From Streptomyces sp. LS1784 (GTDB taxonomy: Bacteria > Actinomycetota > Actinomycetes > Streptomycetales > Streptomycetaceae), in NCBI RefSeq assembly GCF_020103755.1, contig NZ_JAHSQD010000020.1:1-38662 (forward strand): DNA of 38,662 nt, given 5' to 3'. The notes beneath the pieces were generated by a model that ran no database searches, had not been told where the DNA came from, and saw only the letters and a program-made list of their open reading frames with translations. The position numbers were made by a program, and so were the translations under genes. Positions 4,386-35,157 of this stretch are shown piece by piece. Position 1 is the first letter of the stretch; each line of letters starts with the position of its first letter.

Positions 4386-5940
<1,555 letters not shown>

Positions 5941-5942
<2 letters not shown>

Positions 5943-6002
5943 CGGCGAACAGCGAACAGCTGACAGATTTCGAAATCTGTCAGCTGTTCGCTGTTCGCCG
6001 TC
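5941..6002. repeat. 62-bp perfect palindrome (element A), terminator-like
   Basis: The two 31-base halves are exact reverse complements with no loop: the centre is ATTTC|GAAAT, flanked by CTGACAG/CTGTCAG and by a doubled GAACAGC/GCTGTTC. It starts inside the TGA of the permease gene. RNA would form a very stable hairpin, so a terminator role is plausible, although no U-tract follows (normal for actinobacteria). Related elements occur at 9750, 15728, 24171 and 34980. Confidence 0.9.
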
Positions 6003-6212
6003 GTCTGTTGCTCGTCGCCCGGCCGCTGCCGCCGCCCGTTCGACGACGGTGAGGACCTTTGCCGCGCCGTCCTCGGCGGCCGGTTTGCCAGGTGGCGGAA
6101 CCGGGTGGACCGGGTAATCCCGGTGCGGAACCGGGGGGCGGGGCGGTGGCGTCTTCGAGGGCAGAGCGGACGGGGCGGGGCCCGTCGCGCCTCGGACGGG
6201 AGGGGCTGACCG

Positions 6213-6479
6213 ATGAGCATCGTCGCGTGGATCGTGCTGGGCCTGCTGGCGGGTGGGCTGGCCAAGCTGCTGCTGCCGGGGAAGGACCCGGGCGGCCTGA
6301 TCGTGACCACCCTGATCGGCATCGCCGGGTCCTTCGTCGGCGGCTGGATCGCGTCGCACTTCCTGCACCGCTCGGTCACCGCGCACTTCTTCGACGCGGC
6401 GACCTGGGTGTCGGCGATCGGCGGCGCCCTGGTGCTGCTGATCGTCTACCGTCTGCTGTTCGGCAACTCGCGCCGCTGA
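6213..6479 (+). CDS. YeaQ/YmgE (GlsB-type) small membrane protein, copy 1
   Basis: 88-residue hydrophobic protein with three predicted helices: SIVAWIVLGLLAGGLAKLLL, GLIVTTLIGIAGSFVGGWIA and WVSAIGGALVLLIVYRLLF. The Gly-rich spacing is typical of the transglycosylase-associated/YeaQ-YmgE family, which is linked to general stress but has no known biochemical activity. A ribosome site of the form GGGAGGGG lies just upstream of the ATG. A closely similar gene follows at 6688, so the pair is a tandem duplication. Confidence 0.88.
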   Translation: MSIVAWIVLGLLAGGLAKLLLPGKDPGGLIVTTLIGIAGSFVGGWIASHFLHRSVTAHFFDAATWVSAIGGALVLLIVYRLLFGNSRR

Positions 6480-6687: not shown

Positions 6688-6951
6688 ATGAGCTGGATGG
6701 CGTGGATCGTGCTGGGCCTGGTGTCGGGGACCCTGGCCAGGATGGCGATGTCGAGGGGTGAACGCGGTCTGATCAGCAGCACCCTGATCGGCATCACCGG
6801 CTCCTACATCGGCACCTGGATCGTTCTGCACTGGATGCACGGGACGGTGAAGGTGGGCTTGCTCGACGTCACGACCTGGGTGTCGGCGATCGGCGGCGCG
6901 ATGGTCCTGCTCCTCGCCTACCGGGTGCTCCGCTTCGTCGCGCGGCGCTGA
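6688..6951 (+). CDS. YeaQ/YmgE (GlsB-type) small membrane protein, copy 2
   Basis: 87-residue paralogue of the upstream gene. WMAWIVLGLVSGTLARM, LISSTLIGITGSYIGTWIV and TTWVSAIGGAMVLLLAYRVL align closely with copy 1, and both end in an Arg-Arg tail. The likely ribosome site is AAGGGG ahead of the ATG at 6688. The two genes are 208 bp apart. The last 34 bp overlap the 3' end of the convergent ADP-ribosylglycohydrolase, so the two transcripts must be antisense at their ends. Confidence 0.88.
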   Translation: MSWMAWIVLGLVSGTLARMAMSRGERGLISSTLIGITGSYIGTWIVLHWMHGTVKVGLLDVTTWVSAIGGAMVLLLAYRVLRFVARR

Positions 6952-8014: not shown

Positions 8015-8602
8015 TCACTTCACCTTCAGGCCGCCGAGGACGAGCTTCCAGACGGCCTCGAACCGGTCGTCGACCCCGGGGGCGGACCAGGTGGACGCGT
8101 AGGCCGGATCGTGGAAGGGGCCGGTGGCGTCGAAGACGGCGCGGGCGATGTTGCGGATGTGGGCGAGCTTGAACTCCTTGCCCTCCATGCCTTCCTCGAC
8201 GATCTGCGCGATCTGGTCGACCAGGGTGTCGACGTGGGTGTCCACCAGGCCACTGTTCTCCTCGACCAGCACCATGTAGGTGGCGAACAGCTCCGGGTCG
8301 TCCAGCGCCTTCTTCCGCTTGGCCGTGAACAGCGTCGTCAGCCAGCGGTGCAGCCGCTCGGAGGCGGGGCCGCCCTCGTTGGAGATGGTCGCCAGCTCGT
8401 GATGGGCCTGGTCGAGCCAGCGCTGGGTGACCGCCTCGCGCAGCGCGGCCTTGCTGGGGAAGTGGCGGTAGACGCTGCTGTGGCTGACGCCGAGGATACG
8501 GGCGACGTCCACGACGGTGGCCTTGGCCGGGCCGAACCGCCGGAGGACGTCCTCCGCCGCGATCAGGATCTGCTCGGCGGTGAGTGTGCTGTCCGTGGTC
8601 AC
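8015..8602 (-). CDS. TetR-family transcriptional regulator
   Basis: 195-residue repressor-type protein. The N-terminal helix-turn-helix is clear (about residues 10-55: AEQILIAAEDVLRRFG, ATVVDVARILGVSHSSVYRHFPSKAALREAV). The C-terminal ligand domain resembles the TetR_C group with AFDATGPFHDPAYASTW. I chose the GTG at 8602 (VTTDSTLTAEQ); the frame is open further upstream but lacks domain character there. The ribosome site is weak (AAGGACGG). It lies 58 bp after the aldo/keto reductase on the same strand and may control that gene and itself. Confidence 0.85.
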   Translation of the reverse strand: MTTDSTLTAEQILIAAEDVLRRFGPAKATVVDVARILGVSHSSVYRHFPSKAALREAVTQRWLDQAHHELATISNEGGPASERLHRWLTTLFTAKRKKALDDPELFATYMVLVEENSGLVDTHVDTLVDQIAQIVEEGMEGKEFKLAHIRNIARAVFDATGPFHDPAYASTWSAPGVDDRFEAVWKLVLGGLKVK

Positions 8603-8660: not shown

Positions 8661-9674
8661 TCAGCGCTCGCTGTCCAGGTGGGCCATCTGTGCGGCAGCG
8701 TACCGGTCACCGGCGGCCGAGCCGGCGGGTACGGCGGCCTCGATGGCGGCGAGGTCGGCCTCGGTGAGAGTGACGTCGAGTGCGCCGAGGGCCTCGGCCA
8801 GGCGGTCCCGGCGGCGGGCGCCGACCAGCGGGACGACGTCCTGCCCGCGCGAGGCCACCCAGGCGATGGCGACCTGGGCGACAGTCGCACCCCTTGCCGC
8901 GGCGATCTCGCGCAGGGCCTCGACCAGTGCCAGGTTGTGGGCCAGGTTCTCGCCCTGGAAGCGCGGGCTGTGGCTGCGGAAGTCGGTGCCGCCGAGGGTA
9001 CGGTCCCGGCCCCAGTGGCCGCTGAGCAGGCCGCGGGAGAGCACCCCGTACGCGGTGATGCCGATGCCGAGCTCGCGGGCGGCGGGCAGGACGGCGGCCT
9101 CGATCGAGCGGGAGAGCAGCGAGTACTCGATCTGGAGGTCGCTGATCGGGTGGACGGCGGCGGCCCGGCGCAGGGTGTCGGCGCCGACCTCGGAGAGTCC
9201 GATGTGGCGGACGTAGCCGGCCTGCACCAGGTCGGCGATGGCGCCGACGGTCTCCTCGACCGGGACGTTCGGGTCCAGGCGGGCCGGGCGGTAGACGTCG
9301 ATGTGGTCGGTGCGCAGGCGGCGCAGGGTGTAGGAGAGCGCGGTCTTGGTGGCGGCGGGGCTCGCGTCGTAGCCGAGCCACTGGCCGTCGGGGGTGCGCT
9401 GGGCGCCGAACTTCACGCTGATCTGCACGTGGTCGCGATCGCGACCACGCAGTGCCTCGTGGATCAGCAGCTCGTTGTGGCCCATGCCGTAGAAGTCGGC
9501 GGTGTCGAGCAGGGTGATCCCGGCGTCGAGCGCGGCGTGGATGGTGGCGATGCTCTCGGCTTCGTCGGCCGGGCCGTACAGGTCGGACATGCCCATGCAG
9601 CCGAGGCCGAGGGTCGAGGTGACCGGCCCGGTGGTGCCGAGGGGGCGCTGGGCGGGGCGGGTGTTCGTGGACAC
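8661..9674 (-). CDS. Aldo/keto reductase
   Basis: 337-residue NADPH-dependent oxidoreductase of the AKR (beta/alpha)8 family. Asp57 and Tyr62 (DTADFYGMGHNE) and Lys88 (SVKFG) of the catalytic tetrad are present. The position usually held by His (YQxHRxD) reads YRPARLD, with Ala131, so the tetrad is incomplete; I believe a subgroup of actinobacterial AKRs shares this. The cofactor-binding C-terminus is normal (VPLVGARRRDRLAEALGAL). The GTG at 9674 has GGAG 6 bases upstream; the frame extends further but runs into the repeat region. Probably one unit with the TetR gene downstream. Confidence 0.88.
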   Translation of the reverse strand: MSTNTRPAQRPLGTTGPVTSTLGLGCMGMSDLYGPADEAESIATIHAALDAGITLLDTADFYGMGHNELLIHEALRGRDRDHVQISVKFGAQRTPDGQWLGYDASPAATKTALSYTLRRLRTDHIDVYRPARLDPNVPVEETVGAIADLVQAGYVRHIGLSEVGADTLRRAAAVHPISDLQIEYSLLSRSIEAAVLPAARELGIGITAYGVLSRGLLSGHWGRDRTLGGTDFRSHSPRFQGENLAHNLALVEALREIAAARGATVAQVAIAWVASRGQDVVPLVGARRRDRLAEALGALDVTLTEADLAAIEAAVPAGSAAGDRYAAAQMAHLDSER

Positions 9675-9731: not shown

Positions 9732-9760
9732 ACTATGGCACGACATCGAACAGATTTCAA
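9732..9760 (-). promoter_or_regulatory. Promoter-like pair for the aldo/keto reductase, -35 inside element B
   Basis: On the minus strand TTGAAA (9755-9760) and CATAGT (9732-9737) are 17 bases apart. The predicted start is about 50 nt before the GTG at 9674. The -35 box falls within the palindrome ACAGATTT-ca-AAATCTGT, so a protein bound there would block transcription. The match is by consensus only. Confidence 0.4.
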
Positions 9761-9767
9761 AATCTGT
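9750..9767. repeat. Palindrome element B (core only)
   Basis: ACAGATTT-CA-AAATCTGT has 8-bp perfect arms and the same core as elements A and C. The left arm can also pair with TGAAATCTGT at 9793-9802, giving an alternative, larger stem-loop. The outer arms seen in elements A and C are missing here. Confidence 0.7.
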
Positions 9768-10024
9768 CCGCTGTCGTCTGTTATCTGAAAGTTGAAATCT
9801 GTCGATTGTCATTTGTTTGGATTGGCGGCTCGGGGTCAGCCGACCCCGAAGGCGCCCGACCGGTCGCAGTGCGGCTGTCCGGCTGCGCTCGCACGCACTC
9901 GACGGTGTGGCGGCAGACGCCCGCGTCGAAGGTGACCGCGATGCCCGCGCCCTGGTGCGTCCGCCCGCCGCCGTCCTTGCCCTCGCTCCGGTCCTTCTCG
10001 TTGTCCGGGCCCGGCCCCGGTCCG

Positions 10025-15634: not shown

Positions 15635-15727
15635 TCCCGCGGTGAGTCGCTGACGGCCGACAGCCGGCAGCCGGCAGCAAGTGGCAGCAGCAGTCGGCGG
15701 GAGGCGACAGCGAACAGAGAGCAGCCG

Positions 15728-15773
15728 ACAGATAACAGCTGACAGATTCTGAAATCTGTCAGCTGTTATCTGT
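15728..15773. repeat. Palindrome element C, terminator-like
   Basis: Two perfect 21-bp arms (ACAGATAACAGCTGACAGATT and its complement) flank the loop CTGA. It lies 94 nt after the peptidase stop and just before the paa promoter. The inner part, CAGCTGACAGATT, is shared with element A, while the outer part differs (ATAACAG instead of GCGAACAG). It probably ends the peptidase transcript and isolates paaA. Confidence 0.85.
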
Positions 15774-24170: not shown

Positions 24171-24217
24171 CAGCTGACAGTCGCCGGGGAACGCTGTTCC
24201 TTGCCGGCCGTCAGCTG
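24171..24217. terminator. Bidirectional terminator-like stem-loop (element D)
   Basis: Outer arms CAGCTGAC/GTCAGCTG, middle arms GCCGG/CCGGC and inner hairpin GGAAC-gct-GTTCC nest in one 47-base structure. It sits between the convergent Pth2 and ABC permease genes and includes the permease stop codon. The outer arm matches the CAGCTGACAG part of elements A and C, but the ATTT..AAAT core is replaced. Confidence 0.65.
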
Positions 24218-34921: not shown

Positions 34922-34979
34922 CAGGCGGCAGAAAGCCGGTAGGCAGCCGGGAGGCGACAGAGTGCGACGGACGGAGTTC

Positions 34980-35021
34980 AGCGGACAGGTGACAGATTTC
35001 AAACTCTGTTATCTGTCCGCT
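34980..35021. repeat. Palindrome element E, terminator-like
   Basis: A 42-bp imperfect palindrome: AGCGGACAG/CTGTCCGCT outer arms and a degenerate GTGACAGATTT/AAACTCTGTTAT core with two wobbles and one mismatch. Downstream GTCACCTG (35036-35043) can pair instead with CAGGTGAC (34986-34993), giving a second fold. It follows the P450 stop by about 60 bases. Confidence 0.65.
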
Positions 35022-35157
35022 GCCGTTCGTGTGCCGTCACCTGTGAGTTGTCCGCCGCTCGCCGCCCACTGGGCATACGACAGGGCCATTCGAACACATC
35101 GCTCTCGTCCTGCGGGCAGCTTTTCGGATCTTTGTCTGGGCGATTCCGGCCCCTCGA

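Follow-up and report, generated by a model that had tools for sequence, protein, structure and literature searches.

The stretch of DNA considered here (the window, 38,662 nucleotides in all) carries a perfect palindrome of 62 bp immediately behind a permease gene, and the locus raises the question of whether such a structure is a local accident or one member of a larger population, and of what it might do for the chromosome. The segment equals its own reverse complement over all 62 nucleotides, with no loop and no mismatch, just as a preliminary description made from the letters alone had it; the pair of bases immediately outside it (T5940/G6003) is mismatched. The same description placed the start inside a stop codon, and the permease frame does end in a TGA at 5940-5942, with the palindrome starting at its G. 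At 73.6% GC, chance would supply about 4e-12 perfect palindromes with arms of 31 bp in a sequence of 38,662 bases. This one is the longest perfect palindrome of the window, and no arm of this length occurs in the 800 kb scanned of the relative G004 (520 kb around the domain discussed below and 280 kb of controls), where the longest perfect arm is 28 bp with a 4-nt loop. A very strong RNA hairpin had also been predicted, and the computed fold (-61.4 kcal/mol, z -11.5) agrees. The features of the window are collected in Table 1.

Table 1. Positions of the palindrome, the heptad arrays and the associated genes in the window
Feature	Position	Strand	Remarks
Perfect palindrome, 62 bp	5941..6002		Each arm has the words TCAGCTG, TTCGCTG and TTCGCCG; GAAATCTG centres lie between the arms
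Whole inverted heptad array at the flagged site	5943..6021		Left 5943-5970, right 5973-6021; heptad scan 32.5 and 42.8 bits
NCS1-type permease gene (Transp_cyt_pur)	4386..5942	+	Palindrome enters its TGA
Family core ACAGATTTCAAAATCTGT before the aldo/keto reductase (AKR) gene, with upstream heptad array to 9815	9750..9815		Putative TetR operator over promoter; core palindrome site at 9750-9767
Aldo/keto reductase gene (AKR)	8661..9674	-	First gene behind the putative operator
TetR-family regulator gene (TetR_N + TetR_C_27)	8015..8602	-	Downstream of AKR
Second 3'-end array, after M20 peptidase gene	15708..15773		Palindrome 15728-15773, 21-bp arms, 4-nt loop
Weak array remnant between convergent genes	24190..24217	+	16.7 bits
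Third 3'-end array	34958..35057		Imperfect palindrome 34979-35022

A family of inverted heptad arrays

The right arm of the palindrome is extended in the same 7-nt words up to position 6021, and the window holds four arrays built in this manner. Broadly, each member of the family has a conserved centre, in most cases with GAAATCTG on one side or both, from which 7-nt words (TCATCTG, TCAGCTG, TTCGCTG and so on) run outward in two opposed arrays. The vocabulary, compiled from 305 words at 32 sites of G004, comprises words that begin with TCAT, TCAG, TTCG, TTAT, TCAC, AAAT and others and then mostly end in CTG or CCG; at 55% GC the arrays are less GC-rich than the genome (74%). An innermost TCTG is common to nearly all of the sites listed, and positions 4-8 from the centre are paired in 65-69 of 70 sites. 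No fixed short consensus holds at all sites, since the words outside the core vary. A polar, KOPS-like signal was rejected on a count over the 28 sites paired between G004 and G011 (both near-complete genomes of the genus Kitasatospora), in which GAAATCTG stands on one side alone at 10 sites on the left and 8 on the right in G004, and at 11 and 8 in G011.

The genome from which the window comes (9.56 Mb in 1294 contigs) has 28 matches to the core ACAGATTTCGAAATCTGT when up to three mismatches are allowed; some contigs carry several, and four lie inside the window. A reversed-pattern control gave no matches in that genome. Near matches of the 22-nt core, one or more per genome, are present in 84 of the 199 genomes searched, the window's own included, and 17 of the 70 genomes of its genus have between 7 and 20 of them; G038 has nine core sites. 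An exact 20-mer was found in 48 stretches of a named collection, of which 45 are from records named Kitasatospora or Streptomyces and are taken here as one genus, Kitasatospora; the other three (Marinobacter and two Clostridia MAGs) look like chance. In a log-odds scan for heptad words with a cut-off of 20 bits, 69 arrays were detected in the 520 kb of G004 that cover the domain (1 in a shuffle of it), 69 in 520 kb of G011 and 1 in 280 kb of the array-free G025; the controls, 14 stretches of 20 kb elsewhere in G004, contained none, and a single one at 16 bits. The period is also evident without any model: the 3' gaps inside the domain have an excess of 5-mers that recur after exactly 7 nt, with 13.6 per thousand in G004, 11.4 in G011 and 20.1 in G042, against 2.8-6.4 per thousand at other distances in the 3' gaps of G004 and G011. 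By this test no 7-nt period appears in divergent gaps, in the flanks and controls of G004, in G025 or in G007.

The reading that the palindrome arose by a single inverted duplication, or as an artefact of assembly, which would account for a perfect 62-bp palindrome that is no chance event, is refuted by this wider family and by what stands at the same place in relatives. Among ten genomes compared there, an array is present in the window's own genome and in six of the nine others (G018, G066, G062, G008, G004 and G011), with differing words, and is absent from G051, G023 and G025; we leave this reading practically no probability, and a lone palindrome is likewise ruled out. In six of the seven array-bearing genomes the two arms have matching innermost words, the exception being G011. 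At the place of the weak remnant at 24190-24217, G018, G066, G062, G051, G023 and G004 have arrays, and G008, G011 and G025 have none.

A known Rfam family was dismissed, with no match in the window at gathering score, as was an origin from viruses, with no exact 20-mer match in viral contigs. No published description of an inverted heptad-array family was found in a literature search made mostly at listing level, and it is apparently an undescribed repeat family of Kitasatospora. Two further observations concern the surroundings. Related heptad hairpins lie scattered over the chromosome in G003 and G005, which belong to another clade, and also in G061, in some cases as long uninterrupted repeats of words such as CAGCTGA. 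Behind the palindrome, the window encodes two neighbouring paralogous small proteins (6213-6479 and 6688-6951), the first of which matches Transgly_assoc; the second has 55% identity to the G004 orthologue of the first.

Position relative to genes and the question of termination

The arrays of the domain lie mostly behind genes. Convergent or tandem gaps hold all 36 merged sites of G004 (18 convergent and 18 tandem, the AKR operator being among the tandem ones) and 30 of the 35 of G011 (13 convergent and 17 tandem). The G004 arrays are over-represented in convergent gaps (p=2e-6) and under-represented in divergent ones (p=3e-5), and in tandem gaps the arrays begin at a median of 4 bp (G004) or 22 bp (G011) past the stop codon. 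All four array folds computed are very stable, and the flagged palindrome, a stable stem just past a stop codon, is placed compatibly with a role in termination. In a study of Streptomyces griseus, 441 of the 2,115 transcript ends that were mapped have structure and lack a T-rich motif (PMC8914203). On the evidence of position and predicted folding it is likely that the arrays end transcription. On transcription, an array directly downstream of one gene or of two would give a long stem-loop, which would most likely end transcription from both sides, as a hairpin terminator free of a U-tract or as a protector of 3' ends.

Several observations count against such a role. Five of the 35 G011 sites are divergent according to the simple and rather crude gene caller used. 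A second hairpin with arms of at least 9 bp is rare in array gaps (3 of 61, as compared to 47 of 279 others, p=0.016), which speaks for such a role, but the signal is weak and becomes non-significant at longer arm cut-offs, with p values at cut-offs of 9, 11 and 12 of 0.10, 0.36 and 0.53 in convergent gaps alone and 0.02, 0.09 and 0.14 in tandem gaps alone. Mismatches at tandem sites show no excess of G.U pairs in the sense orientation (33 sense G.U versus 36 sense A.C), so that selection for pairing at the level of RNA is without support. The preliminary description had suggested that an intact palindrome of this size is recent, selected or repeatedly copied: repeated copying accords with its membership in a repeat family and with the arrays at the same place in other genomes, and the absent wobble bias leaves selection, in the sense of RNA pairing, unsupported.

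Matched turnover of words in the two arms

Between G004 and G011, the proteins of which have a median identity of about 88%, 28 of the 36 G004 sites are paired with a G011 site in the corresponding gap, and the words themselves have largely been exchanged. Within a site, the left and right words agree at rank 1 in 32 of 56 cases (shuffled mean 11.0) and at rank 2 in 27 of 56 (shuffled mean 5.7), values reached in none of 5000 shuffles, and the agreement fades at rank 3 (5 of 56, P=0.06). The same arm compared between the two species agrees in 8 of 56 cases at rank 1 (shuffled mean 6.7, P=0.33) and in 10 of 56 at rank 2 (mean 4.9, P=0.012). Words are thus replaced between species while both arms stay matched, and this matched turnover, together with the absent wobble bias, fits copying at the level of DNA. 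Template switching can create and repair stems, according to PMC8794818, and switching between the arms during replication would be the simplest way to keep them matched in whole 7-nt words; copying between arrays may also contribute. The change of whole words with matching kept offers a natural test of template switching as a source of hairpins.

The core and the TetR/AKR operon

The TetR and AKR genes of the window have the family core in front of them, and in most of the domain-free genomes examined this operon has one core, near TGACAGATATTGAAATCTGTCA, which overlaps a promoter-like TTGAAA-N17-CATAGT (the promoter was read by eye). The core TGACAGAT-N6-ATCTGTCA is likely to be the AKR-TetR operator of the relatives, and the centre of the arrays matches this putative operator. 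The TetR was found in 62 of the 70 genomes of the genus, most of them without the domain, and the other eight have no core match. G011 has lost the reductase and kept the TetR with its putative operator, and the same has probably happened in the draft genome G065, which has no reductase match and a TetR at 93%.

The putative operator and the recognition helix of the regulator appear to have changed together, from SHG/TCA to SHS/TTC, about once in the genus. Where the helix has SHS, the promoter-side word of the operator has TTC in 15 of 16 genomes (one operator was not found), and where it has SHG the word has TCA in 12 of 12; these genomes are not independent and amount to about one change on the tree. 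In G011, SHS occurs together with TTT. The inner words of the arrays mostly do not follow this change as the AKR operator does, for at the 27 paired G004/G011 sites TCA is found in 70 of 108 inner words and TTC in only 10, and so the regulator appears to have parted from the arrays.

These observations bear on the possibility that the arrays are operators of the window's TetR, either as a regulon or as titration sites. The near identity of the core with the AKR operator is in its favor, as are the location of the regulator in the domain, its retention after loss of the reductase, and the helix-operator correspondence, dependent as those genomes are. The scarcity of TTC in the array words after the switch argues against it, and so do the presence of the regulator in so many genomes that mostly lack the domain and the position of the sites, as only the AKR site is placed at a promoter and the other G004 arrays lie behind genes. 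We consider this reading very unlikely. The operator of this operon lies in the same domain, is almost identical in sequence to the family core and may be where the family originates.

The best-supported account is that of a 3'-end hairpin repeat with a core in common with a TetR operator and with arms homogenised at the DNA level. Taken as a whole, with the array as a probable two-way terminator, its core operator-like and its arms kept matched word by word, we give this account an even chance of being right.

Confinement to a domain of about 400 kb

Interspersed palindromic repeats are normally scattered. In this family, 29 of the 30 core sites of G004 lie in 1,668-2,065 kb and 29 of the 30 of G011 in 5,082-5,465 kb, with about 35 arrays in the domain. 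The inner edge falls at the same gap and gene in both genomes; the outer edge agrees within one site, G004 having one more, about 4 kb further out, and colinear orthologues without arrays run for more than 25 kb past both edges. When the arrays are counted in steps of 20 kb, the edges are sharp and the numbers do not visibly fall off from a founder. In G066 the matches listed lie in 0.970-1.381 Mb, and in G017 those listed lie in 5.863-6.346 Mb, with two weak outliers besides. The single outlying core site, identical in sequence between G004 and G011 (ACGGATTTCAAGATCTGT, at G004:C1:4748128 and G011:C1:3148508), is about 290-295 kb from dnaA in both, and G017 has a half site, GAGCTGACAGATTTC, outside the domain and without a heptad array (C1:3823001-3825000). 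One array pair of G011 lies about 80 kb outside the domain, at about 5.001 Mb.

The surroundings are unexceptional. In the array-free G025, gene content and gene order are unchanged over the inner part compared, from which it follows that the domain is ordinary chromosome, and eight proteins at the domain edges belong to ordinary Pfam families, save one without a match. A foreign island was rejected on this colinearity and on the synteny of G004 and G011 past the edges. With dnaA at 4.453 Mb in G004 and 2.859 Mb in G011, the domain is 2.2-2.8 Mb away, and parS sites at oriC were rejected on this distance. Mobilisation by a RAYT, as for REP elements, was rejected as well: Y1_Tnp (E 0.001) has matches in 6 of 11 genomes, the array-free G030 among them, and none in the array-bearing G011, G066 and G003.

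The presence of arrays differs within a pair of sisters. In a tree of AKR and TetR (midpoint root; G002, for which no frame was found, and G011 and G065, which lack the reductase, are excluded) the domain-bearing genomes included fall within one clade of 18 rows with support 100/99, and G042 and G007 make up one of its two branches. Their median identity is 92%, as compared to 86% between G042 and G004, and 85 of 93 genes of G042 are closer to G007. G042 has 11 array sites on 168 kb, and G007 has, in 400 kb, one strong array, at the AKR operator, and one weaker match of 20 bits. A shift of vocabulary in G007 was rejected, as some GC-rich hairpins stand at the same places but no 7-nt period stands out. 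In one case the gap around a G042 array (C8 85961-86033) measures 240 bp; its counterpart in G007 has 81 bp and no array, with conserved flanks, and this looks like a clean loss or gain. The nearly array-free G007 beside G042 provides a natural control.

One reading of the confinement takes the arrays for DNA sites by which a single chromosomal domain is marked or organised; a putative protein would bind them, and their 3'-end location would merely spare promoters. The 29 of 30 core sites within about 400 kb in each genome, the coinciding edges with array-free synteny beyond, the interval of the matches listed in G066 and the lack of any sign of sense-RNA pairing would be expected of such a mark. 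The spacing of the arrays points the same way, being slightly more regular than if gaps had been chosen at random (CV 0.69 versus 0.92, P=0.026, and 0.72 versus 0.91, P=0.066). Set against this are the want of a candidate for the binding protein, the restriction to one arm of the chromosome, the near absence of arrays from the true sister G007, the scattered hairpins of G003 and G005, the outlying array pair of G011 and the consideration that a degenerate binding motif would not need matched arms of varying words. On balance this is an unlikely reading.

A second reading is that of a selfish repeat without host function, spreading locally and tolerated mainly at 3' ends, in which case the domain would be the reach of copying from a founder. 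It gains from the sole strong array in 400 kb of G007 lying at the AKR operator, from the contrast of that genome with G042, from the shared vocabulary and turnover of words, and from the scattered relatives in G003 and G005. It loses by the 28 of 36 positions kept between species at such protein divergence, by the sharp edges without a founder gradient, and by the missing Y1 transposase in three array-bearing genomes; we judge it to be improbable in about the same measure.

The preferred account of a 3'-end hairpin repeat is itself challenged here, as a plain terminator leaves the sharp-edged confinement unaccounted for and G007 does without nearly all of the arrays. Neither termination, a founder gradient, a foreign island nor RAYT mobilisation explains a confinement so sharp and conserved. 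A more speculative proposal, which we offer tentatively and as rather unlikely, is that this Kitasatospora clade marks the domain with about 35 arrays read by a putative factor that keeps the arms matched and the borders sharp, an address system that would have evolved from the TetR operator, the regulator later escaping through the change of recognition helix and operator. A family that fills one domain of about 400 kb and stops at nearly the same genes across species provides a handle on the limits of copying, or of function, within a chromosome.

Comparison with known systems

The matS sites of MatP and the parS sites of ParB are palindromic, occur in tens of copies, are restricted to a chromosomal domain and have a fixed short motif. 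The Kitasatospora arrays resemble them as palindromes present in tens of copies and confined to a domain, but they are long and variable, mark only one arm of the chromosome and have no known protein counterpart. The STRR heptanucleotide repeats of cyanobacteria are degenerate 7-nt units arranged in tandem between genes. The likeness to them lies in the degenerate units in intergenic gaps, whereas in Kitasatospora two arrays oppose each other to form an inverted repeat and are limited to a domain.

With REP and BIME elements the arrays have in common that they are short intergenic palindromes, present in many copies per genome and found at the 3' ends of genes, where REPs cluster according to PMC1590033. 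They differ in that the arms are heptad arrays of interchangeable words and in that, in G004 and G011, they occupy one domain and are not dispersed over the genome, although their relatives in G003 and G005 are. Like the U-less ("I-shaped") hairpin terminators of GC-rich actinobacteria, as these are presented in PMC8914203, the arrays form a stable stem right after the stop codon, with no T-tract seen; those terminators are unrelated GC-rich stems, whereas the arrays are a single, less GC-rich and domain-limited sequence family. Finally, the array core is nearly that of the putative AKR-TetR operator and in this respect recalls the operators of the TetR family, but the arrays stand behind genes, are many words long and have mostly not followed the later change in the operator of the regulator.
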